Positions 3,171 to 55,875 of a stretch of 64,000 nucleotides of DNA are shown piece by piece. The position numbers and the translations under genes are program-made. Within the stretch, counting starts at the first letter, position 1, and every line of letters begins with the position of its first letter. This DNA is from Caldicellulosiruptor bescii DSM 6725 (GTDB lineage: Bacteria > Bacillota > Thermoanaerobacteria > Caldicellulosiruptorales > Caldicellulosiruptoraceae). The notes under the pieces are model-generated. The model was not told the origin of the DNA, made no database searches, and saw nothing but the letters and a program-made list of their open reading frames with translations. The DNA lies in assembly GCF_000022325.1 (NCBI RefSeq), contig NC_012034.1, positions 2,355,501 through 2,419,500 of the forward strand, written 5' to 3'.

Positions 3171-3301
3171 TTTTAATTATATTCATGTCAGGATAGAGGT
3201 AACCTCAATTCTTTTTATAACCTTCTCCTTAGTATTTTCGCACATTTTTTCGCTGTGGTAAATATTCTGCATACCTATTTGAGGATATTAATTTGAATCT
3301 C

Positions 3302-3330: not shown

Positions 3331-3345
3331 AATGTTATCACAATA

Positions 3346-3484
3346 TCAAAAAAGCTGAATTCCTGTGTAAAAAGCACAGGATAGGGGGGACCCATTTTTT
3401 GGGGTGAATCAAGGCATTTTTGCCTTGTAGGGCAAACGTCCCTTTCTGCCCGAACCCGTCAGCTAACCCCCGAAGCTTTGAAAG
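3346..3484 (+). ncRNA. c-di-AMP riboswitch (ydaO/yuaA type), copy 1
   Basis: Conserved ydaO-class blocks occur in order: a 5' P1 strand TCAAAAAAGCTGAA, GGGGGACCCA, GGGGTGAATC, a variable AAGGCATTTTTGCCTT hairpin, GTAGGGC, the hallmark CCGAACCCGTCAGCTAACC, and the 3' P1 strand AAGCTTTGA. It lies directly in front of the Re-citrate-synthase-like gene in the same direction. No terminator separates it from the gene, and the ribosome binding site AAGGGAGG abuts the 3' strand of P1, so control is probably at translation initiation (inference). Known members of this class turn expression off when c-di-AMP is high. Confidence 0.9.
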
Positions 3485-3499
3485 GGAGGTTTGTTTTTT

Positions 3500-4858
3500 A
3501 TGAATGTAAAATTTAATCAAAAGACTCACATTCTTGAGATTGAGTATCAGTTCAGGGATGTTGAAGAGCCAAATCTTTTCAGGAACATCTATCCTTACAA
3601 TGAGGTACCAAGGCTTGTTTTCAACCACAGAATTGTGCCAATGAATGTTCCTGAGCGGCTTTACATCACAGACACAACTTTCAGAGACGGCCAGCAATCA
3701 CGCTCACCGTACACTGTTGATCAAATTTGTAGAATTTATGACTACTTACATGAACTTGACAATGGGAGTGGCGTTATTCTTCACACAGAGTTTTTTGTGT
3801 ACTCAAAACAGGATAAAGAAGCAGTTTTAAAGTGTTTAGAAAAAGGTTATGATTTTCCAAAAGTCACCGCTTGGATTCGGGCAAAAAAAGAGGATTTTGA
3901 GATTGTAAAGAACCTTGGTATCAAGGAAACAGGAATTTTGGTTTCATGTTCTGACTATCATATCTTCAAAAAATTAAAGATGACAAGAAGTCAAGCAATG
4001 AAGCAATACTTAGAAATTGTGTCGGCAGCTTTAGAGGCAGGAATCATACCACGCTGCCATTTTGAAGACATCACAAGAGCTGATTTTTACGGATTTGTCT
4101 TGCCGTTTATTAATGAGCTTATGAAACTTTCAAAAGAGGCAAATATGCCTGTGAAAATCAGAGCCTGTGACACGCTGGGGCTTGGATCACCAATACCGGG
4201 TGTGGCTCTCCCAAGAAGTGTGCCTCAAATAATCTATGGTATTGTCAACTATGGTGAAGTGCCATCTGAGTGGCTTGAGTGGCACGGTCACAACGATTTT
4301 TACAAGGCAGTCATAAACTCAACAATGGCATGGCTGTACGGTGCTTCAATGGTAAACACATCACTTTTGGGAATAGGTGAGCGCACGGGTAACACCCCAT
4401 TAGAGGCAATGGTGATGGAATACATTCAGATAAGAGGCAGCGCAGATGGCATGAATGTTGCTGTAATATCTGAGATTGCTGAGTATTTCAAAAAAGAAAT
4501 CGGGTATGAAATTCCTCCAATGACGCCTTTTGTTGGTGAGAACTTTAACGCAACACGGGCTGGAATTCATGCAGATGGACTTATGAAAGATGAGGAGATT
4601 TACAATATATTTGATACAGGAAAGATTCTGGGGAAGCCTCCTAAGGTGATTATAGATGCATACTCAGGCATTGCAGGAATTGTAATCTGGATAAATAGGT
4701 ATTTCAAAGATAGCGGCATTGACATTCAGGTTGACAAAAAAGACCCAAGGGTTCAGAAGGTCAAAGAGTGGGTAGACAGTCAATATGAAAATGGAAGAAA
4801 TACATCAATAAGTGATGAAGAGCTAAAAGAGGTTGTAACCAGAATATTTGGACTGTAA
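3500..4858 (+). CDS. (Re)-citrate synthase-like HMGL-family enzyme
   Basis: A 452-aa enzyme of the DRE-TIM (HMG-CoA lyase/isopropylmalate synthase) superfamily. The metal-site motif ITDTTFRDGQQSR starts near residue 53, with CHFEDITRADFYGF and the metal-binding HGHNDF motif further on. The pattern resembles clostridial Re-citrate synthases, which condense acetyl-CoA and oxaloacetate, more than LeuA: it lacks a C-terminal leucine-binding domain and has no leu neighbours. ATG at 3500 is chosen because AAAGGGAGG (3481-3489) lies 10 nt upstream; the in-frame TTG at 3491 abuts that site. Citrate leads to 2-oxoglutarate and glutamate, which fits c-di-AMP control. Homocitrate synthase-like activity cannot be excluded. 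Confidence 0.75.
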   Translation: MNVKFNQKTHILEIEYQFRDVEEPNLFRNIYPYNEVPRLVFNHRIVPMNVPERLYITDTTFRDGQQSRSPYTVDQICRIYDYLHELDNGSGVILHTEFFVYSKQDKEAVLKCLEKGYDFPKVTAWIRAKKEDFEIVKNLGIKETGILVSCSDYHIFKKLKMTRSQAMKQYLEIVSAALEAGIIPRCHFEDITRADFYGFVLPFINELMKLSKEANMPVKIRACDTLGLGSPIPGVALPRSVPQIIYGIVNYGEVPSEWLEWHGHNDFYKAVINSTMAWLYGASMVNTSLLGIGERTGNTPLEAMVMEYIQIRGSADGMNVAVISEIAEYFKKEIGYEIPPMTPFVGENFNATRAGIHADGLMKDEEIYNIFDTGKILGKPPKVIIDAYSGIAGIVIWINRYFKDSGIDIQVDKKDPRVQKVKEWVDSQYENGRNTSISDEELKEVVTRIFGL

Positions 4859-4867
4859 AAGACAAGC

Positions 4868-4895
4868 AAGGCTGCCACATGAAAACGGCAGCCTT
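4868..4895. terminator. Hairpin between convergent genes
   Basis: AAGGCTGCC and GGCAGCCTT form a 9-bp stem around a 10-nt loop between the 3' ends of the citrate synthase-like gene and araD. The T tracts are weak on both sides, so termination strength is uncertain. Confidence 0.6.
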
Positions 4896-4941
4896 ATGTT
4901 GTATTAACAACCCTTTCTTGTGCTGGGGGAAAAGTAATTTT

Positions 4942-5586
4942 TTATTTTTGCCCATATTTTGTCATGTACCTCTCATGAGCTCTTTTTACCTCATCAAGCG
5001 GAATCTCGATAGGCTCGCCCATCATCTTTGCAATAAACACTGTTTTTGCCACATCTTCTACCATAACAGCCGCTTTTACAGCCTCATCAACTGTCTTGCC
5101 TATCGTAAAAACTCCATGGTTCTGAAGAAGAATTGCCGGACTTTCTCCTATATACTCAACTATCACCTTGCCTATGTCCTCACCACCAATCTGAGCATAC
5201 GGTCCGCACGGAATCTCACAGCCGAACTCATCAGCAATTGCTGTCAAATACACCTTTATTGGCTGACCCAAGGCTGCAAACGCTGTTGCATAGTTTGAAT
5301 GTGTATGAACAACAGCATTTATGTGCGGCATGTGTTTGTATACATAAAGATGAGTTAGTGTATCTGTTGACGGCTTTAAATCTCCTTCAACAACATTTCC
5401 GTCCATGTCAACAACAACCATTTTGTCAGGTGTCAAATCATCATACATCACACCAGAGGGTTTTATAACAACAAGGTTTGTCTCAGGGTCGCGTGCTGAG
5501 ACATTACCAGATGTCCATGTGACAAGACCAAATTTTGGAAGATAAAGATTGTATTTGCAAACAATCTCTTTTAAGCTTTCAAGCAT
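4942..5586 (-). CDS. araD: L-ribulose-5-phosphate 4-epimerase
   Basis: A 214-aa class II aldolase-fold enzyme converting L-ribulose 5-phosphate to D-xylulose 5-phosphate, the last arabinose-specific step before the pentose phosphate pathway. Visible motifs are TSGNVSARD (phosphate binding), KPSGVMYDDL, KPSTDTLTH, the zinc-site VVHTHSNYA and NHGVFTIG. The length is close to the family norm. The start overlaps the last 16 bp of araR, so the two genes are translationally coupled and share a transcript. Fuculose-phosphate aldolase is the main alternative from sequence alone, but the araB/araR neighbours argue for AraD. Confidence 0.88.
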   Translation of the reverse strand: MLESLKEIVCKYNLYLPKFGLVTWTSGNVSARDPETNLVVIKPSGVMYDDLTPDKMVVVDMDGNVVEGDLKPSTDTLTHLYVYKHMPHINAVVHTHSNYATAFAALGQPIKVYLTAIADEFGCEIPCGPYAQIGGEDIGKVIVEYIGESPAILLQNHGVFTIGKTVDEAVKAAVMVEDVAKTVFIAKMMGEPIEIPLDEVKRAHERYMTKYGQK

Positions 5587-6644
5587 TCCTGTATTCCTCC
5601 TCTTGTGGAATTCCTGTAAATAATCTCACACTCTATTTCTTCACTTACATGCACTTTATTTTTCTTTATCATTGCAATAGTGGCTTTTGCTGCCATCTCA
5701 CCAAGCTTTTCCTTAGGATGTTCAACTGTTGTGAGCTTTATATCTGTTAATGTTGCTAAAAGTGAATTGTCAAACCCTGTAACAGATATATCATGGGGAA
5801 TCCTAAAACCCATTTCCTTTAGCTTTACACAAAGAGGAAGAGCAATCTTGTCGTTGTAACAGACAGCTGCATCAAACTTTCCTCTTGATATAACCTCTGC
5901 TGCCCTTTTGTGAACAAAATTGTATTCCTCACTTGTGAAAAAGATTACATCAAATTCTACATCGGCTTCTTTGCAGGCTTTTTCAAACCCACGGTACCTT
6001 TTTATTCCTTGCAGGTCATCACCTTTGAACACACCAAAAAGTCTTTTACACCCATTTTTTATAAGGTTGGTTGTAAGTTTATATACAGCCGATTGGTCTT
6101 TTGTTATTATATAGTTTTGAGCCACTTCTTCTAAGATGGTGTTTATGAATATAACAGGTATGTCTTTTTGTATAAGCTTTTTGTAAAGTTCCAGATTTTT
6201 GGAAGGCAGCGCACTTTTTGTGGGTTCTATTATAACAGCATCAATATTGGGGTTGTTGATTATACTTTCCAAGTGGTATCTTTCAAACTCGTAACTATTG
6301 TCTGTTGAAAATAGTAAAAGTCCGTAACCTTCATGTGCTATCACCTTTTCAATTCCTCTTATAATTAGTGGAAAGATATAGTCAGAGATAAATGTTGTAA
6401 GAACTGCAATGCATTTAGAACTGTCTGCACTCTTTTTTGCAACAAACGTGCCTCTTCCTTTTAGCGATACCAAAAGCCCTTCAAATTCAAGCTCCATTAT
6501 AGCTCTTCTTACAGTGTGCCGCGAAACTTTGAACTTCCTTGCAAGCATATTCTCTGAATAAATCTTTTCTCCCTCTTTAAATTTACCAGAATTAATACCC
6601 TCAATTATGAAATCCTTTATCAATTCATATTTTGTTTTACTCAT
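5571..6644 (-). CDS. araR: AraR-type arabinose repressor (GntR-LacI hybrid)
   Basis: A 357-aa regulator with an N-terminal GntR winged helix (KFKVSRHTVRRAIMELEFEG, then GRGTFVAKK) and a C-terminal LacI/periplasmic-binding-type effector domain (CIAVLTTFISDYIFPLIIRG onward, ending with DISVTGFDNSLLA). AraR proteins bind L-arabinose and release DNA. ATG at 6644 is preferred over the in-frame ATG at 6683, because the latter lies inside the promoter -10 box and upstream of the palindromic operator. It is co-transcribed with araD and probably autoregulated. In B. subtilis araR stands alone, so the araR-araD coupling is a local arrangement. Confidence 0.88.
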   Translation of the reverse strand: MSKTKYELIKDFIIEGINSGKFKEGEKIYSENMLARKFKVSRHTVRRAIMELEFEGLLVSLKGRGTFVAKKSADSSKCIAVLTTFISDYIFPLIIRGIEKVIAHEGYGLLLFSTDNSYEFERYHLESIINNPNIDAVIIEPTKSALPSKNLELYKKLIQKDIPVIFINTILEEVAQNYIITKDQSAVYKLTTNLIKNGCKRLFGVFKGDDLQGIKRYRGFEKACKEADVEFDVIFFTSEEYNFVHKRAAEVISRGKFDAAVCYNDKIALPLCVKLKEMGFRIPHDISVTGFDNSLLATLTDIKLTTVEHPKEKLGEMAAKATIAMIKKNKVHVSEEIECEIIYRNSTRGGIQECLKA

Positions 6645-6655
6645 TTTACCATCAT

Positions 6656-6669
6656 CTTGTATATACAAG
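6656..6669. promoter_or_regulatory. AraR operator in the araR leader
   Basis: A perfect 14-bp palindrome, CTTGTATATACAAG, starts about 10 bp downstream of the araR -10 box. It resembles the TTGTA(n)TACAA core of known AraR boxes, implying autoregulation. Confidence 0.75.
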
Positions 6670-6678
6670 TTTATTTTA

Positions 6679-6707
6679 ATCATACCATTTCTAAATTTTC
6701 AAATCAA
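6679..6707 (-). promoter_or_regulatory. araR-araD promoter
   Basis: On the minus strand TTGATT (6702-6707), a 17-bp spacer and TATGAT (6679-6684). Transcription would begin just before the 6656-6669 operator. The -10 box overlaps the upstream ATG, which rules out that start. Confidence 0.65.
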
Positions 6708-6721
6708 TCTATAATTATAAC

Positions 6722-6771
6722 CTGCAGGCTGTCGGAAATTGTAAAATTTTAAAAATAGCCTGCAAGTTACA
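6722..6771. terminator. Inverted repeat between araB and araR
   Basis: AACCTGCAGGCT and AGCCTGCAAGTT pair over 11 of 12 positions around an AT-rich 26-nt loop. It lies just after the araB stop, so it may end the araB transcript, but no long T tract follows. Confidence 0.4.
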
Positions 6772-6786
6772 AATTAAATGCATTTG

Positions 6787-8457
6787 TTATATTTTCGAAA
6801 CTTCATCTTTTATCTCTTTTAATCTCTTCATTACATCATTTGCTCCTCTTCCAAAATAGTCATGAAGTATTCTGTATTCTCTGTATAGCTTTTTGTAAAT
6901 CTCATGGTTTTGCGGATTTGGTTTATAAGAATAGTCTTTAAGTTTTGCCATTTTCTTTGCAGCTTCAAATATGCTATCATAACCACCTCTTTCTTTTCCT
7001 GCAGCAACAGCACCAAACATTGCAGAACCAAGTGCCGGTGTTTGAGGTGATGCAGAAACCTTTATTTCAAGCCCTGTCACATCAGCATAAATCTGCATCA
7101 AAAGCTCATCTTTTTCAGCAATTCCTCCACACGCATAAAGCTCTCTTACTTCAACACCGTGCTCATTGAAGTTATCAATTATTATCTTTGTGCCATATGC
7201 CGTTGCCTCAATCAGTGCTCTGTACATCTCCTCTGGCTTTGTAGTCAAGGTCATGCCAAGCATCATACCAGTGAGGTCTGCATCAACCAGAATTGACCTG
7301 TTGCCATTCCACCAGTCAAGCGCCAAAAGACCGCTCTGGCCAGGCTTTAAAGCCTTTGCTTTTTCTTTGAGTAGCTGATATATGTTGAGTCCTTTTTGTT
7401 TTGCCTCATCGTGATATTGAGCTGGCACGCAGTTTTCAACAAACCACTCAAAATGATCTCCAACACAGCTCTGTCCTGCCTCATACCCATAAAAACCAGG
7501 TAAAATTCCATCTTCAACATATCCGCAAATTCCTGGTACCATCTTCTCTTCATTCCACAAAAGCATGTGGCATGTAGATGTTCCAATTATCATCAGCATC
7601 TTGCCAATATCAGTAATCCCAACAGCAGGAACTGACACATGAGCATCAACATTTGCAATTGCAACAGCTGTCCCAGGATTTAATCCCATAAGCTTTGCCA
7701 TCTCTTCTGTGAGCTCACCAGCTTTTTGCCCAATCGGGTATATCTCGCGTGATAGCTTTTCATCAACAACATTTTCAAGCCTTGGATGAAGTGCTTTGAA
7801 AAACTCTTTTGAAGGATACCCTTCCCTCTTGCTCCAGATAGCTTTATATCCTGCTGTACATGAGTTTCTCTTCTCAACCCCTGTCATCTTAAACACAATC
7901 CAGTCAGCTGCTTCTATAAATTTGTCTGCCTCTTCATAGACTTCTGGTGCTTCTTCTAAAATCTGCATGATTTTGGGGAATAGCCATTCGGATGAAATCT
8001 TTCCGCCATATCTTTGTAAAAACTTCTCTCCTCTTTCTTGAGCTATTCTATTTAGCCTATTTGCATACTTTTGAGCAGCATGGTGTTTCCACAGCTTAAC
8101 ATAGGCATGAGGATTTGATTTGAACTTGGGAAGCTCACAAAGCGGTGTCCCATCCTTTTTGATAGGAAGCATTGTACAGGCTGTAAAGTCAATTCCTATT
8201 CCAATCACATCGTCTTTGGAAACTCCTGCTTTTTTCAAGACATCTGGAACAGTTGTTGCCAAGACTTCTATATAATCCTGTGGATGTTGAAGTGCCCAGT
8301 CATGAGGAAGTTTTGTACCATCTGGCAAGCTCTCGTCCATAACTCCATGAGTGTACTCTTTCACACTTGTTGCAACCTCTTCACCTGTCTCAACATTAAC
8401 AAGCACTGCCCTTCCTGACTGTGTTCCAAAATCAATTCCTATACTGAACTTTGCCAT
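6787..8457 (-). CDS. araB: L-ribulokinase
   Basis: A 556-aa FGGY-family sugar kinase phosphorylating L-ribulose with ATP. The N-terminal ATPase motif [15 protein letters not shown] is followed by [82 protein letters not shown] and ACGGIAEKD. All are close to Bacillus AraB along the full length. ATG at 8457 follows AAGGGGGA; 30 in-frame codons further upstream are leader. The promoter is flanked by two AraR-like operators. No araA isomerase gene is in the window, so it must lie elsewhere. Confidence 0.95.
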
Positions 8458-8480
8458 AAAAATCCCCCTTTTCCCCTTTG

Positions 8481-8494
8481 CTTGTGCATACATG
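8481..8494. promoter_or_regulatory. AraR-like operator downstream of the araB promoter
   Basis: CATGTATGCACAAG on the minus strand matches the araR operator at 11 of 14 positions. It lies 10-20 nt downstream of the likely transcription start. Confidence 0.55.
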
Positions 8495-8503
8495 TTTCTT
8501 AAA

Positions 8504-8533
8504 AATATAGTATCATATATGCAAAAAGAACAA
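8504..8533 (-). promoter_or_regulatory. araB promoter
   Basis: On the minus strand TTGTTC (8528-8533), an 18-bp spacer and TATATT (8504-8509). It is weak, and is flanked by the two operator-like palindromes. Confidence 0.5.
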
Positions 8534-8553
8534 AAGAGAAGGAGCAAAAAAAG

Positions 8554-8567
8554 TTGTACGCGGACAA
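8554..8567. promoter_or_regulatory. Second AraR-like operator upstream of the araB promoter
   Basis: TTGTACGCGGACAA is a near-palindrome with TTGT and ACAA ends, about 70 bp from the 8481-8494 site. Two operators flanking a promoter fit cooperative looping repression as known for AraR, but the inner spacing differs from the araR operator. Confidence 0.4.
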
Positions 8568-8585
8568 TTTAATGCTCTTTCTCTT

Positions 8586-10364
8586 TTAGAGCCTAAAATA
8601 TTCTGGATTCAATACAAGTATCACATTGCCTTCATAATCAATTGTTGTTCCTAAAAGAAGTTTGTTGTTTTCCAGAAACTTGGGAAGAGGTTTTAAAACA
8701 AATTCTTCATTTTGCATTAGTTTTTCAACACATATAGCTATTTTTACACCCCTTATATTCAAAATTACAACTGAAACTTCATCATCTTTTGTAAATCTTT
8801 TAACAACATCTTCACTACAAGAATCTTCCTGATAAAGCACATATGAAATGGGATAAAGGGGAATTGGTTCATCTCTTACATCAATAATAAGTTTATCAAC
8901 ATACCCATATACATTTTTCATACTTATTTTTACAGTCTCTTCAATATATTCGAATGGTATTATAAACTTTTGCGAATTATAAACAACTACAATACCCTGT
9001 GAAACAGCAGCTGTTGTTGGAATTTCAAGTATGAATTTACTTCCTTTACTTTTTTCTGTTTTAACTTCAACCTTTCCTTTTAACGCTTCAACAGTATTTT
9101 TTACAACATCCATTCCTACTCCCCTGCCAGAAATTTCATCTGCAATATCCTTTGTAGAAAACCCAGGTTCAAAAATTAATTTTATTACTTCATCGGCTGT
9201 GAGACTTTTTGCCTTTTCATCAGATATAATTCCCTTTTCTATCGCTTTTCGTGTTACTCTTTCAACATCTATTCCTTTGCCATCATCAATTATCTCTATA
9301 ACAATGTTCTGCCCCCTATAGTATGAAATAAGCTCTACTTTCCCATGCTCTGGTTTGCCAATCTTTTTCCTTTCGGAAGCACTTTCAATACCATGGTCTA
9401 TACAATTTCTGATTATGTGCATAAGCGGTTCGCTTAGTTTTTCTGCAACACCTTTATCTATTACCACATCATTACATGTAAATATAAATTTAACTTTCTT
9501 GCCTGTCTTTTTAGCAGTCTCTCTTACAAGTCTATTAAATCTTTTTACAACCAGCTCAAAAGGAATCATTCTTATCTTCATAATGTTATCCTGAAGAATC
9601 TCAGAGGTTCGATGTATAAAACGGAAAAGCTCTTTGAATTTTTTAGAAAGTTCAGCATCATATTTTTCAAGTTCTTTTGAAAGATAATAAAACGTGCTTT
9701 TAGTTGTTATAATCTCACCAACAAGCCCAAGCATTTCGTCAATTTTTTCATAACTAATTTTTACCTCATTAAATTCAGAAGAAAGTGCTGATGTCGTCGA
9801 TTCGATAATCTTTTCAATATTATCTTTCCTTTCAATATTGTCATAAAATTCCTCCTTGCCTTCCTCTTTTGCTTCAAAATCTTTTTCAAAATATTCATCC
9901 TTGGTTTCTTTTTCTTCAACCTTAGACTTTAAAATTTCAGTCTCTATAAGACTTTCTTTTTCCTTTTCAAATAGTTCTAAATTAAATTCTTCCTCAATCT
10001 CAATATTTCTCTTCCCGGTTTTCCGTATCTCACTGAGACCAAATACAATCTTTTTTATGACATCGCTTCCTTTAAGAAGAAAATCTATAACGTCACTGCT
10101 AACATTTATTGTTCTGTTTCTTATTTTTGCTAACACATCCTCAATAATCTGACATAATTTTGTAAATTCATTCATTCCTTCAAAAAATCCTGACAATCCT
10201 TTTATAGAATGATATTTTCTAAATAAACTATTCACAAGCTCTTCATCGGTAACTCTTTCCTCCAATGCTAAAATTTCTGCTTCTATATTGTTGAGATACT
10301 CACACGACTCAGATAAAAAATCATCCAATATCTCAAGTTCATCTTCTTTTACTACAACTTTCAT
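8586..10364 (-). CDS. cheA: Chemotaxis histidine kinase CheA
   Basis: A 592-aa kinase. The P1 phosphotransfer domain has the phospho-accepting His52 in FRKYHSIKG. An acidic linker (about residues 120-200) replaces a clear P2 domain. P3 dimerisation helices follow (YEKIDEMLGLVGEIITTKS), then P4 ATPase boxes (HIIRNCIDHGIE, IDDGKGIDVERV, GRGVGMDVV) and a C-terminal P5/CheW-like domain. Start 10364 is chosen because GGTGAT precedes it and it lies 4 nt after the cheR stop. The short linker suggests CheY or CheB docks differently from enteric CheA. It is the last gene of the cluster. Confidence 0.93.
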   Translation of the reverse strand: MKVVVKEDELEILDDFLSESCEYLNNIEAEILALEERVTDEELVNSLFRKYHSIKGLSGFFEGMNEFTKLCQIIEDVLAKIRNRTINVSSDVIDFLLKGSDVIKKIVFGLSEIRKTGKRNIEIEEEFNLELFEKEKESLIETEILKSKVEEKETKDEYFEKDFEAKEEGKEEFYDNIERKDNIEKIIESTTSALSSEFNEVKISYEKIDEMLGLVGEIITTKSTFYYLSKELEKYDAELSKKFKELFRFIHRTSEILQDNIMKIRMIPFELVVKRFNRLVRETAKKTGKKVKFIFTCNDVVIDKGVAEKLSEPLMHIIRNCIDHGIESASERKKIGKPEHGKVELISYYRGQNIVIEIIDDGKGIDVERVTRKAIEKGIISDEKAKSLTADEVIKLIFEPGFSTKDIADEISGRGVGMDVVKNTVEALKGKVEVKTEKSKGSKFILEIPTTAAVSQGIVVVYNSQKFIIPFEYIEETVKISMKNVYGYVDKLIIDVRDEPIPLYPISYVLYQEDSCSEDVVKRFTKDDEVSVVILNIRGVKIAICVEKLMQNEEFVLKPLPKFLENNKLLLGTTIDYEGNVILVLNPEYFRL

Positions 10365-10368
10365 CAAA

Positions 10369-11208
10369 TCACCATCCACTTTCGCATTCTTTATAATAGA
10401 AAAAGTAATCATTTATTCTTCTTACATTGAACTTGTCAGAAAGCCTTCCAACAGATTCTGAATGCCCTAAAAAAAGATACCCTCCACAGTTTAAAATTTC
10501 ATACATCTTGTCAATAACTTTTTTTCTCTGCTCATCACCAAAGTATATAAGAACATTTCGACAAAATATAAAATCAGATTTTGAAAAAATAAAGTATTTG
10601 GCAAAATCAATCAAATTGTGATGTATATACTTTATATTTCTCTTTATTTGGTCCTTAACTTTGAACTTACCATCATTTGTAATATCAAAGTACCTATTTA
10701 AATAATGATGATGTACAAATCTCACATTTCTCATTTCATAGATGCCTAATTCTGCTATTTTTAATGCCTCTGTATCAATGTCAGATGCAAAAATCTCAAA
10801 CTTAATACCATCTTCTAAAAATTCATTTAAAATTATAGAAATTGTATATGCTTCATCACCTGTTGCACATCCCGCAACCCATATTTTTATTTTATCTTCT
10901 CCATTTTTCTTTTTAAACTCTATAACTTCAGGTAGTATCACTTCTGCAAAAGCCTTTAACTGTTCAAACTCTCTAAAAAAGTATGTTTCATTTACTGTCA
11001 AAAAATTTATAAAATCTTGAAGAACTTTCTCATCTGTCATAAGATTATAATAGAAATGATTCAAATCTTTTATAGTACCTTCATTTATTTGCTTTTTTAG
11101 CTTTTGCAATACAATACTAATTTTCTGGTCGTTTAAGTATATCCCAGTTTTATCAAGAATAAACCTTTTTATTTTGTCAATCGAAGCAGCATCAATATCT
11201 TGTATCAT
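10369..11208 (-). CDS. cheR: Chemoreceptor methyltransferase CheR
   Basis: A 279-aa SAM-dependent methyltransferase that adds methyl groups to receptor glutamates. It has an N-terminal helical domain (about residues 1-75), the contact TYFFREFEQL, SAM-binding WVAGCATGDEAYT, FASDIDTEAL and FCRNVLIYFGDEQRK, and a C-terminal GHSESVGRLS. No C-terminal receptor-tethering extension is evident. It starts 3 nt after the first CheX-like gene and is followed immediately by cheA, consistent with one operon. Confidence 0.93.
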   Translation of the reverse strand: MIQDIDAASIDKIKRFILDKTGIYLNDQKISIVLQKLKKQINEGTIKDLNHFYYNLMTDEKVLQDFINFLTVNETYFFREFEQLKAFAEVILPEVIEFKKKNGEDKIKIWVAGCATGDEAYTISIILNEFLEDGIKFEIFASDIDTEALKIAELGIYEMRNVRFVHHHYLNRYFDITNDGKFKVKDQIKRNIKYIHHNLIDFAKYFIFSKSDFIFCRNVLIYFGDEQRKKVIDKMYEILNCGGYLFLGHSESVGRLSDKFNVRRINDYFFYYKECESGW

Positions 11209-11211
11209 ATA

Positions 11212-11688
11212 CTAATCTTTCCCCCATATGCTTATATTAATACCTATAGAACCCTTTTCTGACGAAAATTTTATGTCAACAGATTCATATCTTGTCATCA
11301 TTATATAGACTTCATTCCCCATAACAAGTGTGGGTGGTGTTATATCCACCTTTTCACCACCAAGTTCAGCAGACATATTATTTGCAATATAAGCAGAAAG
11401 CATATTACCAAGTTCCAAAATGGTGCTTCTTGCCATGGGATCATCCAATGTGTTCAAAAACCCACCTGTCATAATGCTAACAAGTTCTTCTGCTATGTGT
11501 TCATTCAATCCAACTATCACATATCCGTTAATTTTCCCAAGAAATCCTATTGTAACATTTACAGGATAGTCACTTTCATTATTTTCCTTTTGCTGATAAT
11601 AAGAAAGCCTTATATCACTTACGCCAAACTGTTGCAGGATTGCAATGGTTGCATTTTTTACAGCTTCAATAATATTCTTATTCACCAT
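11212..11688 (-). CDS. CheX/CheC-like phosphatase-fold protein 1
   Basis: A 158-aa protein of the CheX/CheC fold. The signature ARSTILELGNMLSAYIANNM carries the Glu and Asn that, in CheC and CheX, attack phospho-CheY, followed by the expected ITPPTLVMGN. It lies upstream of cheR and overlaps the preceding gene by 7 bp. It probably removes phosphate from the adjacent CheY. Only one full E-x2-N helix is obvious, so it is closer to CheX than to CheC. Confidence 0.8.
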   Translation of the reverse strand: MVNKNIIEAVKNATIAILQQFGVSDIRLSYYQQKENNESDYPVNVTIGFLGKINGYVIVGLNEHIAEELVSIMTGGFLNTLDDPMARSTILELGNMLSAYIANNMSAELGGEKVDITPPTLVMGNEVYIMMTRYESVDIKFSSEKGSIGINISIWGKD

Positions 11689-12155
11689 TTAAAACCCCTT
11701 TCAAAACCAACCTCAATAAACATTTTTCCATACTCAAATGCATACTCAATTTTCTTTCTTTGAATCTTGGGTGAAACAATCAACATATTGTCACCAAGAA
11801 AAATTGAAGGTGGAGTTGGTCGCAAGATAGTATTATAGCTTTTTTTGTACTCAACTAATGTATTTCCTACAATCATGTTGAAAATCTCATACGCAACATC
11901 AAGGATATCACTGTTTGTAACAATATCCTGGTCATAGACCATTTTTACAAAATATGTAGAAAGTTTAAAATCAATACCTATTATTACTCTCCCCTTAACT
12001 TCCCCCATAATGCCCAAAACTCCAACAACACCAGAGTGCCAAAATTCATCAAGTTCAGGAACAATCTCTTGTTTGTTATTTGCTTCAATATTAAAATTTT
12101 CTGAGATTATTTTTTTCAAAACATCATCAGCTATATTCAACGCTTCATCTATCAC
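11682..12155 (-). CDS. CheX/CheC-like phosphatase-fold protein 2
   Basis: A 157-aa paralogue of the next gene, with the helix DVAYEIFNMIVGNTLVEYKK holding the Glu/Asn pair and RPTPPSIFLGDN after it. It begins with GTG 6 nt after the cheY stop, with a weak ribosome binding site. Two divergent CheX-like proteins side by side might form a heterodimer or act on different response regulators (inference). The N-terminal ~30 residues carry an extra helical stretch. Confidence 0.75.
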   Translation of the reverse strand: MIDEALNIADDVLKKIISENFNIEANNKQEIVPELDEFWHSGVVGVLGIMGEVKGRVIIGIDFKLSTYFVKMVYDQDIVTNSDILDVAYEIFNMIVGNTLVEYKKSYNTILRPTPPSIFLGDNMLIVSPKIQRKKIEYAFEYGKMFIEVGFERGFKW

Positions 12156-12161
12156 TTTTGC

Positions 12162-12524
12162 CTAACCCCCAAACGCCTTATTTATAGCATTTTGTATGTC
12201 CTCACTTTTGAAAGGCTTTCTTATAATTGCTACTATATTTGAAGGGTCATTCACATTTAAAAGTTCCTTATCCCCGATTGCACTTAAAAATATAACTTTA
12301 CATGATTTATCCTTTTCGATAATTTTATTGTACGCTGCATCACCCTCTAAAACTGGCATAGTAACGTCCATGAAAATAAGGTCTGGCTTTAGTTCAAAAT
12401 ACTTTTCAACAGCTTCTTGCCCATTTGTTGCACAAAAACACACTTCATGACCTAATTTTTCTATCTCCTTTTTTAAAAGTTTGTGAATCATCGGTGAATC
12501 ATCAACTATCATAATCCTTTTCAT
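12162..12524 (-). CDS. cheY: Single-domain response regulator CheY
   Basis: A 120-aa receiver domain with the acidic pocket Asp8/Asp9, phospho-acceptor Asp53 (DLIFMDVTMP), switch Ser81 (VIFLSA) and Lys103 (IIRKPF). GGAGGAGATAA precedes the ATG. CheA-phosphorylated CheY normally signals a motor; no flagellar or pilus motor gene is in the window, so the output target is unknown. Confidence 0.92.
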   Translation of the reverse strand: MKRIMIVDDSPMIHKLLKKEIEKLGHEVCFCATNGQEAVEKYFELKPDLIFMDVTMPVLEGDAAYNKIIEKDKSCKVIFLSAIGDKELLNVNDPSNIVAIIRKPFKSEDIQNAINKAFGG

Positions 12525-12545
12525 AACTGTTATCTCCTCCCTATT

Positions 12546-13613
12546 TTAATATTCTTGCCCAACAAGCTCAATAAGTTTTTCTGCTATTTTATACGATGGA
12601 AGAACATAATCAGCACCACCGCGCAAAATCGCCTCTCTCGGCATTCCAAAAACAATTGCCGTCTCCTCAGATTCTGCAATTGTAATACCGCCTCTTTGTC
12701 TTATTTTCACCATTGCATCAGCTCCATCATCACCCATACCCGTCATAAGTACCCCAATTGTATTTTCCTGAAACTTCTCAAGCACAGACATCATACATAC
12801 ATCCACAGATGGCATAAATCTATGTTCTGGTTTTTGTGTAAGTCTTATCCTTAAATCTTCAATATTTGTGCCGTATAATGTGAGATGGTATCCGCCTTTT
12901 CCTACATAACATTTTGACTTTTCTACTTTCATACCAGCTGATGCCTCAATAACTTCAATCTGGCAGTTTTCATTGAGTCTTTTTGCATACTGAGCAGTAA
13001 AAGTAGGCGGCATATGTTGAATTAGAAATACACATGCGTTCAAGTTTGATGGAAGGTAAGGCAAAACATCCATAATTGTTTTGGGTCCACCTGTTGAAAT
13101 ACCTATAACAATAGCTTTAAATGGCTTTTGTTCTTCATGTTGAGTTGATATTGTCGGCCTTGCAGATACATCAAACAAGGTTTTCTTGGCAAGTTCTTTC
13201 CTGACAACAAACTTTTTTGAAGATGTTGCTGCAGCTTTGACTTTTTCAATAATATCCTCTTTTACCTTATCAATGTCAAGTGAAATAGTTCCGCCAGGTT
13301 TAGGAACAAAATCAAATGCGCCCATTTCAAGAGCTTTTAAAGTAATCTCAGCACCTTCTTGTGTGAGAGAGGATACCATCACAACTGGTGCAATCTTTTT
13401 TTGCATCAGAATCCTCAGTGCAGTAAGCCCATCCATCCTTGGCATGTTGATATCAAGAGTTATCACATCAGGTAAATACTCTTCAGCTTTTCTGATGGCA
13501 TCCTCTCCATCCCTTGCAGTTGCAATAACTTCAATCTCAGGGTCACTTTCTAAAATCTCTGTTAACTTTTTTCGCATGAAAGCTGAGTCGTCAACAACTA
13601 AAACTTTTATCAT
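12546..13613 (-). CDS. cheB: Receptor methylesterase/glutamine deamidase CheB
   Basis: A 355-aa two-domain protein. The receiver domain (residues 1-~120) has phospho-site Asp54 in DVITLDINMPRMDG. The C-terminal methylesterase has the catalytic triad visible as Ser173 (GISTGGPKTI), His200 (LIQHMPPTFTA) and Asp296 (TGMGDDGADAM). It removes methyl groups added by CheR and can deamidate receptor glutamines. The absence of a cheD gene beside it makes CheB the likely deamidase here. Confidence 0.94.
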   Translation of the reverse strand: MIKVLVVDDSAFMRKKLTEILESDPEIEVIATARDGEDAIRKAEEYLPDVITLDINMPRMDGLTALRILMQKKIAPVVMVSSLTQEGAEITLKALEMGAFDFVPKPGGTISLDIDKVKEDIIEKVKAAATSSKKFVVRKELAKKTLFDVSARPTISTQHEEQKPFKAIVIGISTGGPKTIMDVLPYLPSNLNACVFLIQHMPPTFTAQYAKRLNENCQIEVIEASAGMKVEKSKCYVGKGGYHLTLYGTNIEDLRIRLTQKPEHRFMPSVDVCMMSVLEKFQENTIGVLMTGMGDDGADAMVKIRQRGGITIAESEETAIVFGMPREAILRGGADYVLPSYKIAEKLIELVGQEY

Positions 13614-13644
13614 GAATCTTACTCCTTAACCCCTGTCAAGTTTT

Positions 13645-15081
13645 TTATTCATCAAGAATTATCTCAGGGTCAATTTGGATAATTAAATCATCGTTATGTT
13701 TTATTATAGCTTTTATATATTTTATATCCAAGTTGCTTAGTTTTTCTTTCATTTGATCATTTTCAATAGAGTTATCAACTTCAATAATATTTTCTGCAGA
13801 AACCTTTGAAACACTCAATACCTTCTTTGCCAGAATTCCAAATCTTTCCCCTCTTAACTCGACAATTATTACTCTGGATGAATCATTAATTTGTGTCTCT
13901 CCACCGTATAAAAGTATGCCAAGGTCAATAATAGCTATAATGTCTCCGCGCAAATTTGCAATTCCTTTTAAATACACTTTTTCGTTTGGCACTTTAACAA
14001 TACTTGGTATTCGATTTATTTCTTTTACCTTCTGAATGTCTATTGCAAACTTCTGATTATTTATTTCAAACAGCACAACCTGTTTTTCATCACTGGTCTT
14101 CAACATTTCCAAAGCCTCTTCTCCCTGATTTTTAATCTCTTCATAAATAGCACTGCTAACTTTTTCAAAAATTTTGTTTATACTCAAAATAATAAACATT
14201 CTTTCATCAGATTTAATTGTTCCAGTAAAAATATCTTTATAGTTTGCAATTGTTGGAAGTGGTTTTATTTCATATTCGTTAACTGAAATTACAGACAAAA
14301 TTTTGTCAACTATAAATCCAAATTTAAACCCTGAATTATATGCTATAATAATCTTTGTTTCATCATCTATTTCTTTGCTTTCTGCTTTAAGAAGTTTTTG
14401 AATGTTAATAATAGGAATTATTTCGTTTCTTAAATTTATAATACCCAGAACATCATCACTCTCAGATGGAACTGTTGAAAAATCAGAAAATCGTATTATT
14501 TCTTGAATATTGGCAATATTAAGTGCATAGTTTTGACCATCAATCTGGACTAAAATATACCTTTCCTGTTTTAACACTTTTTGTTCAGTCTCGTCTGTCT
14601 CTGAAATGCTCGATTCTATGTTAATCTTCTGAAAAACTGAAAGTTCAAGGTTCTCTTCAAGAATTTTATCAGTGTCAATGAACGTAATTAACTTATCTTC
14701 TTCTTTCTGCTTAATAACAGCCTTTACCTCTTCAAGTGTTGTAACTTTACACTCGTTTACCTGCGATTGATCAATGCTGCTTATATTCAAAACCTTGTCA
14801 ACAAGCATACCAATTTTTACGTTATTCTTTTCTATGATAATTATTCTTGCATCTTCACTTTTAATGTAACTTTCTATTCTGTACTTTTCTCTTAAATTTA
14901 AAACAGGAATAACATCACCTCTTAAATTTATAAGTCCTGCAACATGGCTTTTTGTAAGTGGAACTGGAGTGATAGATGGAACCTTTATAATCTCCTTTAC
15001 ATTGTCAAGGCTAAAAGCAAAGTTCTGCTTACCTATCTGAAATACAATTACATTTAAGTCAAGTGTTCCTATCTTGCTCAT
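13645..15081 (-). CDS. Triple-domain CheW coupling protein
   Basis: A 478-aa protein made of three consecutive CheW domains, roughly residues 8-150, 170-310 and 330-475. Each has the IxxIxxVP / GxxNLRGxxIPxxxL core (VAGLINLRGDVIPVLNL, VLGIINLRNEIIPIINI, LKGIANLRGDIIAIIDL). Ordinary CheW has one domain of about 150 residues. CheW links receptors to CheA, so a three-domain form could bridge several receptor or kinase units. ATG at 15081 lies 9 nt after AAGGA; an in-frame TTG two codons earlier is too close to it. Confidence 0.92.
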   Translation of the reverse strand: MSKIGTLDLNVIVFQIGKQNFAFSLDNVKEIIKVPSITPVPLTKSHVAGLINLRGDVIPVLNLREKYRIESYIKSEDARIIIIEKNNVKIGMLVDKVLNISSIDQSQVNECKVTTLEEVKAVIKQKEEDKLITFIDTDKILEENLELSVFQKINIESSISETDETEQKVLKQERYILVQIDGQNYALNIANIQEIIRFSDFSTVPSESDDVLGIINLRNEIIPIINIQKLLKAESKEIDDETKIIIAYNSGFKFGFIVDKILSVISVNEYEIKPLPTIANYKDIFTGTIKSDERMFIILSINKIFEKVSSAIYEEIKNQGEEALEMLKTSDEKQVVLFEINNQKFAIDIQKVKEINRIPSIVKVPNEKVYLKGIANLRGDIIAIIDLGILLYGGETQINDSSRVIIVELRGERFGILAKKVLSVSKVSAENIIEVDNSIENDQMKEKLSNLDIKYIKAIIKHNDDLIIQIDPEIILDE

Positions 15082-36949: not shown

Positions 36950-37008
36950 TGTATACTTCAGTCCTTTCTTCTTGAGATTTTAAAGACTATCGAAAGGCTA
37001 TTTATCTT

Positions 37009-37069
37009 GTTTTGCACGAGCAAAACATCTCTCTTTTTAAAGTATAAACTTTGAAAAATCTGCAGTCAA
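37009..37069 (-). promoter_or_regulatory. gltX operon promoter and leader hairpin
   Basis: On the minus strand TTGACT (37064-37069), a 17-bp spacer and TATACT (37041-37046). The leader has a small hairpin, GTTTTGC/GCAAAAC (37009-37026). No T-box elements were recognised. Confidence 0.6.
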
Positions 37070-37117
37070 TCAAAAAAATAAGGGCTAAACTTAAAACTCT
37101 CTCTTTATTTTGAAATA

Positions 37118-37300
37118 TCACCTCAAATGAGACTCCTCTTTAGACCCTGCAACAAACCTAACTGCCATGTGCCATGCTCTTACCTCTTCAGGCGTATAGT
37201 TTTCATGAATGTTTCGATGGTCGTTCTTTTCTTCAATCTTCTCAAATAGCAAATTATACACTTATCTTCTTTGAAGTTTTCTATCATTTCAAAATACACA
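37118..37300 (-). pseudogene. Internally deleted DUF6062 gene copy
   Basis: The first ~17 codons (VYFEMIENFKEDKCIIC) and the last ~35 (ending with TPEEVRAWHMAVRFVAG in another frame) match the 41493-42128 gene, but about 155 codons between them are gone and the join is out of frame. The flanking DNA, including the riboswitch upstream, is also duplicated. Confidence 0.85.
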
Positions 37301-37356
37301 TATCAAAGGTTCATCCCCCCAAAGCCTTCAAAAAGGCTTAAAACTCTTTAAGAAAA

Positions 37357-37452
37357 CAAAAAACTCCTGCCCGCACTCTTTACGGACAGGAGTTATCAGC
37401 CACAAGGTATTTGAACTTCTTGTGGCAATTTAAAGCGAATTCCATCGCCTTA
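37357..37452 (-). ncRNA. Fluoride (crcB-type) riboswitch, decayed copy
   Basis: Same layout as the 42179-42275 copy: AAGGCGATGGAATTCGC, AAATTGCCACAAG ... CTTGTGGCTGATAACTCC and the overlapping terminator AACTCCTGTCC ... GCAGGAGTTTTTT. Two changes weaken it: the loop GGAATT no longer pairs perfectly with AACTCC in the pseudoknot, and the closing pair of the first stem is lost (GGCGA against TCGCT). It heads the DUF6062 pseudogene. A promoter TTGACT-17-CATAAT lies upstream. Confidence 0.8.
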
Positions 37453-37529
37453 GTATTTAACTTTTCTTCTATAAATTAATTATGCCAAGTTTTGAGAAAC
37501 AAGTCAATTTAGGAACTTGTTTTTTCAAT

Positions 37530-38921: not shown

Positions 38922-39326
38922 TTAAGAAATGTATATTCTGCCTTTAATTTTTTCCAAAGAAATCTCAGCGGTAGTTTTTGTTATAACTGAAAATTTATCC
39001 TTATTTTCTAATAAAAACTTATATGCCTCTTTTCCACCAATCTCCCCAAGAGCAAAGACCATAACTTGTTCAAGGTAGGGGTCTTTTTTATTTAAAAGAT
39101 TTTTGCAAAGCTGTTCTATCAATGATTTTTCTGCTCTTTTTATTTTCAATTCTCCAATTATTTTTGCAGCCATATAAGCCACATTATAGTCTGGGTGTCT
39201 CAAGGCTTTGATTAGCTTTTCAGTGTACTTTTCATTTGATATATGCTCAAAATCATAGCCGCAGTTTGAACAGAATTTTTCTCCAACATCTGCTACTTTA
39301 AAGCATTTAGGACATATATATCTCAT
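38922..39326 (-). CDS. Zinc-ribbon plus HEAT-repeat protein
   Basis: A 134-aa protein. The N-terminal zinc ribbon (YICPKCFKVADVGEKFCSNCGYDFE) is followed by two or three HEAT-like helical repeats (LIKALRHPDYNVAYMAAKII; LEQVMVFALGEIGGKEAYKF). HEAT repeats serve as protein-binding scaffolds. It is the last gene of the fluoride-riboswitch operon and overlaps the preceding gene by 4 bp, implying coupled translation. Its exact function is unknown. Confidence 0.75.
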   Translation of the reverse strand: MRYICPKCFKVADVGEKFCSNCGYDFEHISNEKYTEKLIKALRHPDYNVAYMAAKIIGELKIKRAEKSLIEQLCKNLLNKKDPYLEQVMVFALGEIGGKEAYKFLLENKDKFSVITKTTAEISLEKIKGRIYIS

Positions 39327-40087
39327 TTTTTCTCACTCTTTATACCTAAGAGCTTTCTAAGAAATCTGTTTTCTGCCTCGCAGCTGCTTAAGCTCATTTC
39401 AAGTAATCTATTTTCTTTTTCTAATTGAAAGTTTTTAAACTTGATAACTGAATACTGTGAAGAAAGCAGGAGAAGCTGCCTTCTTAAATCATCTTCCTCA
39501 TAATTACATTGCTGTAATTGATATGCCATTATCCCCATTTCAAAAATAGCTCGATAGGCATCTTCTTCAGTGTACGAGTCCTCTTCAAAATCTTTTACCA
39601 ACTCTTTAATCTTTTCCAAGCCTTCCTCACTAATTTCAAAAGAAATTCTTACCACAATTACCACCTTAAACTCAGTTAATTTATATTTTGTTAAGTCGAG
39701 AATTACTTGGAAAATTCCGTTTTTAAGTTGTAAAATTTTTTCTATAATTTTCCTATTATGTACCATTTTTCTCTCAAGTTCATCTTTGTTTTTGTTAAGA
39801 TCATCTCTTGTATTTTTCAGAAGATCTGATATAAGACAGCAAACATGTGATATTTTGTCTTCCATATCAGTTTTAAAAGCCTCGAAGCTTTCTTCCATTC
39901 TCCTCAAAAGATCATACCTGATTCTGCCAATGTTTCTGTCAACATCAATTTCAACCCTGTCAAGTACTCTCTTTAAAATAATCTTTTGAGCAAGTTTTTT
40001 AGGCAAAAGATAAGTAAAATACACAGGATCAATCTCAAGCGCACCAGCTTCATAGCCTATTTTATAAGTAAACTTGCTCTGAGCCAC
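39323..40087 (-). CDS. Probable C-terminal half of the dynamin-like GTPase (separate frame)
   Basis: A 254-codon stretch, mostly helical and coiled-coil (MEESFEAFKTDMEDKISHVC; LEKENRLLEMSLSSCEAENR). The only start, a GTG at 40087, has no properly spaced ribosome binding site. Reading upstream in the same frame continues without a stop through IEISYYEGLQRLVAQSKF to a T7 run at 40126-40132, where it would join the GTPase frame. It is therefore most likely the C-terminal stalk of that protein, made by frameshifting or lost to mutation, rather than an independent protein. Confidence 0.65.
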   Translation of the reverse strand: MAQSKFTYKIGYEAGALEIDPVYFTYLLPKKLAQKIILKRVLDRVEIDVDRNIGRIRYDLLRRMEESFEAFKTDMEDKISHVCCLISDLLKNTRDDLNKNKDELERKMVHNRKIIEKILQLKNGIFQVILDLTKYKLTEFKVVIVVRISFEISEEGLEKIKELVKDFEEDSYTEEDAYRAIFEMGIMAYQLQQCNYEEDDLRRQLLLLSSQYSVIKFKNFQLEKENRLLEMSLSSCEAENRFLRKLLGIKSEKK

Positions 40088-40118
40088 AAGCCTCTGCAGT
40101 CCCTCATAGTAGCTAATC

Positions 40119-41453
40119 TCAATAGAAAAAAAGCTCTTTTGCCGTGTCTTTGATACTCTTTATCAGCTCATTTATCTTTTCGCAATATCTTGAAAGAAGA
40201 AAGGCAAACTGGTCTTCTACATACTTTTCAAGACCTCTTTTTTGAAACTCAAACTCTTGCACAATAGCCTCCTCAAGATACCTTTCAAGATATTCTTTCT
40301 GTTTGAGCCTTTTAAATCTTGCAATTGAGGGATAATAATCTTTTACCTTTTTTGTAATATTTATTGTAATCTCTTTCTTTATTTTTTCTATTTGCTCATC
40401 AAAACTTGTCAGAATATCATTCATCTCCACCTTAAATAACTTATAGATTTCAATCTTGTTCCGATTTATTTTATCTAAAAACTCATCAAACTTTTCAATG
40501 TTTTCTTCAAGCTGTTTTAATGGCATAACTTTGAGTTTCATATCACTTTCCAAAAATGTTCTGCAAACTTCTAAAAAGCTATCTAAACTTTTCAAATTAC
40601 TTAAGAATTGCACTTTTTCTTTTTCATTTCTTAAAAATCGTTTTAGTTCCTCTTCAAAAATCTCTATGCCACTTTTTTTGATAACTTCTCTTCTATCCTG
40701 CACCTTGCCTTCAAGTGCCATCTTTGCTGAAAGAGGAAAGATATTTATATTTTCTTTCTTTGTTATATCTCTGATTACATTTTTTGTAAAAGTTACTATC
40801 TCCTCTAATTCATTTCTGTTTGTCAAGTCACATTTGTTAATTACAAAGAATATCTTATCTACACTTTCAGCAATCTTAAGTAGAAACTGTTTTTCAACTT
40901 CAGTAATTGGTGGGTCAACAGACAATACAAATATGACTGCATCTGACTTGTCAATAAATTCATATGTCACATCTGTGTTGTGCTGATATATAGAACCAAT
41001 TCCTGGTGTGTCAACAATTACAACATCCCTGTTCAAAAAATCAAACGGATACCCTATCTCAATTGTATCAACACCTTTTTGATTCTTAGGATTCCTTTTT
41101 TCTGTGCAGTAAAGCTCAAGTTTATCAACTGGAATTTCTTTTTTTACACCATTGTTAAAAATTACATCTATTTTAACCTCAGGACTGTAATAAATCTTTG
41201 TTATACTTGATGTCAAAGGAAGAACCCCTGTTGGTAATAAATTTGTTCCAAGCATGTAATTTATTAGCGTAGATTTTCCTCTTTTGAACTGACCCAACAC
41301 AACAAGGTAAAATGCATCTTTTTTTATTTTTTCCTCAATGCTACTTGCCAATCTCTTGATAGATTCTGAATCAATCTCCTCTGATAGGTTTTTAATTTGC
41401 TTGAGAAAGTTTTTAATATTCTCCTGCATGATATCATACGCTGTGTCCCTCAT
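40119..41453 (-). CDS. Dynamin-family GTPase, N-terminal part
   Basis: A 444-aa protein with a complete GTPase domain: P-loop GQFKRGKSTLINYMLG, switch I PLTSSITKI, DTPGIG and NKCDL. Long helices follow, typical of bacterial dynamin-like proteins that act at membranes. GAGGTG lies 7 nt before the ATG, 39 bp after the DUF6062 gene. The frame stops right after a T7 run (ELFFY stop); one T fewer would fuse it with the next frame into a protein of roughly 710 residues. Expression would depend on the fluoride riboswitch upstream. Confidence 0.85.
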   Translation of the reverse strand: MRDTAYDIMQENIKNFLKQIKNLSEEIDSESIKRLASSIEEKIKKDAFYLVVLGQFKRGKSTLINYMLGTNLLPTGVLPLTSSITKIYYSPEVKIDVIFNNGVKKEIPVDKLELYCTEKRNPKNQKGVDTIEIGYPFDFLNRDVVIVDTPGIGSIYQHNTDVTYEFIDKSDAVIFVLSVDPPITEVEKQFLLKIAESVDKIFFVINKCDLTNRNELEEIVTFTKNVIRDITKKENINIFPLSAKMALEGKVQDRREVIKKSGIEIFEEELKRFLRNEKEKVQFLSNLKSLDSFLEVCRTFLESDMKLKVMPLKQLEENIEKFDEFLDKINRNKIEIYKLFKVEMNDILTSFDEQIEKIKKEITINITKKVKDYYPSIARFKRLKQKEYLERYLEEAIVQEFEFQKRGLEKYVEDQFAFLLSRYCEKINELIKSIKDTAKELFFY

Positions 41454-41492
41454 CGCCTCTCACCTCATTTTGAAATGTCAGCTCAAATACAC

Positions 41493-42128
41493 TTACTCAT
41501 TAGACCCTGCAACAAACTCAACAGCCATGTGCCATGCTCTTACCTCTTCAGGAGTATAGCTTTCATGAATGTTTCGATAGTCGTTCTTTTCTTTTATTTT
41601 CTCAAGGTGATACAAGATTATATCAATTTTGTGACTTACAACTGATAATAGTTCTTTTTGAGCAGTTATTGATGTAATTTTTACTAATACTTGTTTTAAA
41701 TGCCTTTGACATATAAAACCTTTTTCTGAAAATGCTGATTTAAATTGCGGCTGTGCTGTAAAGTAGTGAGAAAACGCTTTTGTGTAAGTATCTTCAAAGC
41801 CACTTTCCTTTTCACAAAAGACACACACATTTTGATCTTGAATTTTTCTTTTACGGGGTAATGTTTCAATATGGTGGTTGTTTTTAAAATTAATTAGCAA
41901 ATCAGAATATATAATGGCATGGGCAAGTACATCACCTAACGACTCTAACTTTCTTGCATGTATAGGACAAATTCCACCTTCCCTAATTCTGCTTCGCAGA
42001 CTATAGTCATTTACGGATTCGTACAGAAAATCGTCAAAGAATTTGTTCATTGCCTTGTTTTTAAGATGGCATATAATACACTTATCTTCTTTAAAGTTTT
42101 CTATCATTTCAAAATACACGATATCCAA
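41493..42128 (-). CDS. DUF6062-type protein with two CxxC...CxxH zinc modules
   Basis: About 211 aa. Two similar modules: CIICHLK ... EGGICPIHARKL, and CVFCEKE ... EKGFICQRHLKQV; each CxxC plus CxxH set could hold a zinc ion. This is the first gene after the intact fluoride riboswitch. The start is uncertain: TTG 42128 has GGGGGGA 6 nt upstream, while GTG 42119, ATG 42107 and TTG 42143 are alternatives; the deleted copy has a stop just before the position matching 42119. Its role is unknown; zinc-finger scaffolding or RNA binding is possible. Confidence 0.75.
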   Translation of the reverse strand: MDIVYFEMIENFKEDKCIICHLKNKAMNKFFDDFLYESVNDYSLRSRIREGGICPIHARKLESLGDVLAHAIIYSDLLINFKNNHHIETLPRKRKIQDQNVCVFCEKESGFEDTYTKAFSHYFTAQPQFKSAFSEKGFICQRHLKQVLVKITSITAQKELLSVVSHKIDIILYHLEKIKEKNDYRNIHESYTPEEVRAWHMAVEFVAGSNE

Positions 42129-42178: not shown

Positions 42179-42275
42179 GCAAAAAACTCCTGCCCGCATC
42201 CTATACGGACAGGAGTTATCAGCCACAAGGTATTTGAACTTCTTGTGGCAATTTAAGGCGAACTCCATCGCCTTA
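42179..42275 (-). ncRNA. Fluoride (crcB-type) riboswitch with overlapping terminator
   Basis: The RNA shows the fluoride aptamer: stem GGCGA/UCGCC closing the loop UGGAGU, AAAUUGCC, stem CCACAAG/CUUGUGG, then CUGAUAACUCCU. Loop GGAGUU pairs with AACUCC to form the diagnostic pseudoknot, very like the Bacillus cereus crcB leader. The same AACTCCTG is the 5' arm of a terminator (AACTCCTGTCCG ... GGGCAGGAGTT, then TTTTTT), so fluoride binding should prevent termination and switch the operon on. Control of transcription is thus readable from the sequence. Confidence 0.93.
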
Positions 42276-42300
42276 GTATTTACTTTTTTCCTCTATATTT

Positions 42301-55699: not shown

Positions 55700-55875
55700 A
55701 AAAAAGGCATAAAAAAACTCCTTTTGCCTCCCCTTTCAAAGCTTCCGAGGTTAGCTGACGGGTTCGGGCCGAAAGGGTTAGCCCTACAGAAGCTTTTGGC
55801 TTCTGATTCACCCCAAAAAGGTTGGGTCCCCCGTATCCCAGGGCTTACCTGGGAATTCAGCTTTTCAAAAGGAGT
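55700..55875 (-). ncRNA. c-di-AMP riboswitch (ydaO/yuaA type), copy 2
   Basis: On the minus strand the ydaO-class blocks occur in order: CTTTTGAAAAGCTGAATTCC, GGGGGACCCAACC, GGGGTGAATC, GTAGGGC, CCGAACCCGTCAGCTAACC and GGAAGCTTTGAAAGG. It precedes glutamate 2,3-aminomutase, with a factor-independent terminator between them, so it probably works by ligand-induced termination. Copy 1 (3346-3484) shares the core but lacks a terminator. Confidence 0.92.

Follow-up and report, generated by a model that had tools for sequence, protein, structure and literature searches.

A fluoride riboswitch upstream of a DUF6062 and dynamin-like GTPase operon in Caldicellulosiruptor bescii

The operon and its leader

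The window analysed here is a stretch of 64,000 nucleotides from Caldicellulosiruptor bescii DSM 6725 (NC_012034.1, positions 2,355,501 to 2,419,500). On its reverse strand lies an operon coding for a DUF6062 protein, a dynamin-like GTPase, a coiled-coil protein and a zinc-ribbon/HEAT-repeat protein, preceded by a fluoride riboswitch of the crcB-motif type (Table 1).

Table 1. Features of the riboswitch operon and of the second, decayed copy (window positions)
Feature	Position	Strand	Basis or remarks
Fluoride riboswitch aptamer, two stems and pseudoknot	42203..42281	-	RF01734 match; stem and pseudoknot covariation in relatives
Intrinsic terminator, sharing the strand AACTCC with the aptamer pseudoknot	42180..42217	-	
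DUF6062 protein	41493..42128	-	PF19538; TTG start; two CxxC...CxxH sites
Dynamin-like GTPase, N-terminal 444 aa, shortened by a frameshift	40119..41453	-	PF00350
T7 run (T6 in relatives), site of GTPase frame loss	40126..40132	-	Nucleotide alignment
GTPase C-terminal part fused to coiled-coil protein, 254-aa ORF	39323..40087	-	Stop codon lost
Zinc-ribbon/HEAT-repeat protein	38922..39326	-	HEAT_2 above cut-off; zinc-ribbon below cut-off
Second fluoride aptamer, decayed	37380..37458	-	RF01734, 40.7 bits; terminator kept
Remnant of second DUF6062 gene, about 460 nt deleted, upstream of gltX	37122..37320	-	blastn

The aptamer matched the full RF01734 model in Rfam with 47.8 bits (gathering threshold 34, E 3.9e-10), and all five pseudoknot pairs, which join the first loop to the 3' strand, were intact and showed covariation in relatives. 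Across 20 diverse relatives the 13 pairs of the aptamer and pseudoknot were paired in 96.9% of cases, with changes on both sides in eight of them, while slid controls reached only 31–53% and the compensatory changes far exceeded those of both shuffled and slid controls. All pseudoknot pairs were kept in 12 of 14 aligned leaders from the genus and its sister genus; the two damaged ones are decayed copies, the second copy in the window and that of genome G004. The segment AACTCCTGTCC contributes both the pseudoknot strand and the 5' arm of a predicted 15-pair terminator (42217-42185), followed by TTTTTT, with a folding energy of -21 kcal/mol. Fold z-scores were -5.1 for the terminator and -8.2 for aptamer plus terminator. 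A promoter scan gave results at chance level.

In crcB-motif RNAs an overlapping terminator is present and ligand binding is expected to block it (PMC2864571). With its stems, pseudoknot and overlapping terminator the window RNA is a full member of this class, although the targets described for it are transporters, mutS, formate hydrogen lyase and others (Weinberg 2010, PMC2864571), whereas here they are DUF6062 and a dynamin. The predicted layout, in which the terminator is built from the pseudoknot strand, is that of a fluoride-ON switch. In the absence of fluoride the ACUCC strand would pair within the terminator and transcription would stop; with fluoride bound, the pseudoknot would retain this strand and the polymerase would read through, if the RNA switches by the mechanism of its class. 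That the riboswitch regulates the operon is almost certain. A sequence-only reading of this DNA had proposed a complete crcB-type aptamer with an overlapping terminator, which the Rfam score and the shared AACTCC strand bear out, and fluoride-ON logic, which the predicted overlap supports; the interval that it assigned (42179-42275) spans both elements but leaves out 6 nt at the start of the Rfam match.

The DUF6062 protein matched PF19538 along nearly its whole length (54.9 bits against a cut-off of 27, residues 8-190 of 211). Its start and its cysteines are conserved in relatives, an alternative in-frame TTG being available at 42143. The protein is predicted to be all-helical and its paired motifs, shared with the family, probably bind zinc; the riboswitch-linked members are scattered over several branches of the family. 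Comparison of the predicted structure with PDB folds gave no significant match (Foldseek best E 2.2), a second fold comparison reached a best Z of 5.1 over 89 residues, and the profile retrieved only weak matches among PDB sequences, mostly coiled-coil; the missing fold match is neither a functional hint nor proof of a new fold. NCBIfam held no model for the DUF6062, coiled-coil or HEAT protein. A second DUF6062 paralogue is encoded elsewhere in this genome (G000:C1:1607472-1608209, loci L040 and L127); at 232 bits it fits the Pfam model far better than the window protein does, and it has no fluoride switch nearby.

The GTPase carries a Dynamin_N domain (PF00350, 111 bits) with the motifs GQFKRGKST and DTPGIGS, which are invariant, and NKCD in the window protein. 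Relatives encode it as one ORF of about 590 aa, followed by the coiled-coil protein as a separate ORF of 113 aa. Nucleotide alignment with these relatives shows that, owing to the frameshift, roughly the final 150 residues are encoded in a different frame. On the model of an intact relative the break maps to where a long stalk helix ends, ahead of the loop at the distal end of the stalk, so that stalk helices and tip, which form one protein in relatives, are split in the window, where the tip and C-terminal helices are separated off. Because the frameshift precedes the predicted stalk tip, the window GTPase is probably inactive or made only by slippage, unless the extra base is a sequencing error. 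The three genes that the sequence-only reading had placed at 38922-42128 (DUF6062, dynamin and zinc-ribbon/HEAT) are there, but the GTPase ORF is broken and its tail lies in 39323-40087. The same reading held that these are not the known fluoride channels. This stands for the window operon, where no gene had a CrcB/Fluc or ClC-F Pfam match; in relatives, however, the operons and loci also include antiporter, UspA, MutS, enolase or CrcB genes. The CrcB pair of this genome sits behind its own fluoride switch, one of three in the genome together with that of the operon and the decayed one.

Conservation and association with riboswitches

The sequence-only reading had also held that a lack of the leader in orthologous operons would count against it; instead, the leader is conserved. 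All 12 related genomes (G001-G011 of the genus and G012 of the sister genus) have the switch in front of their DUF6062 orthologue, G004 only in a decayed version. The genes further downstream vary: G002 has an antiporter, UspA, the GTPase, the coiled-coil and the HEAT protein; G005 and G010 have the GTPase without these companions; in G011 gltX directly follows switch and DUF6062; in G001 the GTPase is fragmentary; and several relatives without a GTPase keep switch and DUF6062. Another family (f3) has DUF6062, coiled-coil and HEAT genes, usually with an MFS transporter and with no GTPase in the operon. The zinc-ribbon/HEAT protein recurs in the fluoride loci of relatives. Judged by these gene orders, the constant riboswitch target in the genus is DUF6062 and not the GTPase.

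To look beyond the genus we used a sample of 398 genomes spread over the phylum, of which 53 had DUF6062 and at least 156 had fluoride switches. Among 45 DUF6062 genes from this sample (close relatives left out), 20 had a switch no farther than 5 kb away (in 15 cases one scoring at least 34 bits), where about 0.1 would be expected from an estimated switch density. Over half of the DUF6062 genes have no switch nearby, including the second paralogue in C. bescii. In Chloroflexota and Thermotogota the switches near DUF6062 fell below the Rfam threshold where checked, and their proximity is at most suggestive. Looking from the other side, in 79 switch loci picked by switch score, independently of gene content, the first gene was CrcB in 30, a Na+/H+-type exchanger in 23, a dynamin GTPase in 10 and ClC in 3. 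Since Dynamin_N is rare (43 hits in 119 genomes, 97 of which have none), dynamins are about 900-fold enriched as first targets, assuming some 2600 genes per genome, which argues that the link is not a local accident.

The GTPases found in the 398 genomes were placed in a maximum-likelihood tree of 58 rows and their loci scanned for switches. A clade of 39 GTPases (support 100/100) contained 35 switch-linked members (31 at 34 bits or more; the switch model R1 is home-made and switches below 34 bits are provisional), while none of the 19 dynamins that fell outside it, among them two-headed DynA-like proteins, had a switch within the roughly 5 kb on each side covered in most cases. Part of the loci were reached through DUF6062, and related sequences are not independent. 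Three of the four unlinked clade members sit on short contigs or close to a contig end. The switch lies within 250 nt upstream of 17 clade genes (13–14 by strict count), and a clade GTPase from Caldisericota is found 28 nt behind a switch with an Rfam score of 61.7. The search for crcB-type leaders before dynamin genes elsewhere, suggested from the sequence alone, thus found them in many families as well as in Caldisericota.

Gene company and candidate roles

The main explanations of fluoride tolerance are exporters and additional copies of the enzymes that fluoride inhibits. The fluoride-tolerance operon of Enterobacter cloacae FRM comprises ppaC, uspA, eno, gpmA, crcB and orf5249 (PMC5533749). 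It resembles the loci described here in being a multi-gene unit behind a fluoride riboswitch, and UspA, enolase and CrcB are all present in the loci of the window's relatives, but its listed genes include no dynamin and no DUF6062, coiled-coil or HEAT gene. Clade GTPases and DUF6062 share loci with genes for CPA2 antiporters, UspA, MutS-like and MFS proteins, HEAT proteins, enolase and CrcB. One locus (L288, genome G015, 2467-14222) has five fluoride riboswitches over MutS, antiporter-UspA-GTPase, enolase-MFS and coiled-coil-HEAT-MFS units; in L286 the order is switch-GTPase-enolase and in L116 GTPase-DUF6062-CrcB. The classical targets of the crcB motif include mutS and transport genes (PMC2864571), and UspA, enolase and CrcB belong to the E. 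cloacae operon. More than anything else it is these neighbours that speak for a function of the new genes in fluoride tolerance, and the genes of the operon very probably belong to the fluoride regulon. As a separate observation, an ORF in L125 (7489-8187, reverse strand), behind a switch-GTPase pair, is enolase-like at its start and DUF6062 at its end, and may be a genuine fusion or else an artefact of assembly or of a frameshift.

By sequence and by fold of its model, the GTPase is closest to BDLP (2j69) and IniA (6j72), both of which act on membranes. Like these and DynA of B. subtilis it has a Dynamin_N GTPase domain and long stalk helices; the clade differs in being single-headed and linked to fluoride switches, with about 15% identity, and in the window genome it is truncated. 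Since fluoride crosses the membrane into cells as HF, a role in membrane maintenance is plausible, given also the closeness to BDLP and IniA. The single-headed GTPase of the operon would then use GTP to stabilise or repair the membrane crossed by HF, with the DUF6062 and HEAT proteins possibly acting as its partners. We put this membrane role forward tentatively.

Other roles can be imagined for the same genes. In combination with Mg, Al or Be, fluoride acts as a phosphate mimic that can trap GDP-bound GTPases, so the operon might simply provide a spare or fluoride-tolerant GTPase without any specific membrane role, much as the known fluoride operon holds extra copies of inhibited enzymes such as enolase and pyrophosphatase (PMC5533749). 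The enolase genes under the same switches in L286 and L288 fit such a reading, yet in the many genomes devoid of dynamins, and in several clade genomes with a single Dynamin_N hit, a housekeeping copy that it could stand in for is often missing, and we consider this reading quite improbable. Somewhat less so, though still unlikely, is that DUF6062 is the sole fluoride-relevant product in the genus and that the GTPase, coiled-coil and HEAT genes are passengers undergoing loss. The constancy of switch and DUF6062 amid a changing remainder points that way, as do the frameshifted GTPase of the window and the fragmentary one in G001; against it, clade GTPases elsewhere stand directly behind switches of their own (the 13–17 cases within 250 nt), and so does the coiled-coil-HEAT pair in L288. 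The GTPase could also be mobile or defence cargo of the LeoA type, a phage-defence dynamin that landed by chance behind a fluoride switch, given the duplicated and decayed switch-DUF6062 copy and the YhgA-like gene close by. PADLOC models for LeoA (77.5 bits) and LeoBC (47.2 bits) both matched one and the same protein, the GTPase of a relative, while the DUF6062, coiled-coil and HEAT proteins matched none. The spread over many families and Caldisericota, the enrichment among first targets and the nearly exclusive switch linkage of one clade contradict defence cargo as a general explanation and make it highly improbable.

Found under switches across many lineages and with antiporter, UspA, MutS, enolase and CrcB genes as neighbours, the clade GTPases most likely serve fluoride tolerance. 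The explanation as a whole, a fluoride-ON riboswitch controlling an operon of fluoride-tolerance genes with the proposed membrane role included, is the one we favour, with some reserve. Evenly poised is the broader proposal that the distinct dynamin clade, DUF6062 and the zinc-ribbon/HEAT protein make up a widespread fluoride-tolerance module, with a membrane-remodelling arm, that is directly regulated by fluoride riboswitches, the dynamins being the third commonest first target in the phylum sample. This kind of riboswitch is already known. In the literature searched (the supplementary gene list of Baker 2012 lay outside it) we found neither the dynamin clade nor DUF6062 named as a recurrent fluoride target. 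No paper there mentioned DUF6062 and none joined fluoride, riboswitch and dynamin; one match to fluoride, crcB and dynamin proved irrelevant. The pairing of switch with DUF6062 or dynamin across many bacterial families points to an undescribed part of fluoride survival. With a clade so tied to these switches, a family of bacterial dynamins would acquire a defined stress and inducer, and DUF6062, the clade dynamin, the coiled-coil and the HEAT protein, all four uncharacterised, would become named candidates for fluoride genes.

The decayed copy and other elements of the window

In the second aptamer of the window, which the sequence-only reading had missed, one G-C pair of the pseudoknot has become A-C, and the copy, if transcribed, would now terminate with or without fluoride. 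The DUF6062 remnant behind it aligns with the intact copy in two blocks of 89-90% identity, and G004 carries the same remnant. The kept terminator and broken pseudoknot in this region (36950-37495) may insulate gltX, the corresponding arrangement in G011 being an intact switch-DUF6062-gltX. Between the intact operon and the decayed copy there is a YhgA-like gene (PF04754, 37530-38477, reverse strand) with KQGM repeats near its C-terminus.

The window also has two c-di-AMP riboswitches (RF00379, 96 and 100 bits), at 3343-3493 on the forward and 55725-55872 on the reverse strand. One is located just before an ORF of 455 aa of pyruvate-carboxyltransferase type (by eye similar to HMGL and 2-isopropylmalate synthase) and the other before an ORF that, also by eye, resembles lysine-2,3-aminomutase.
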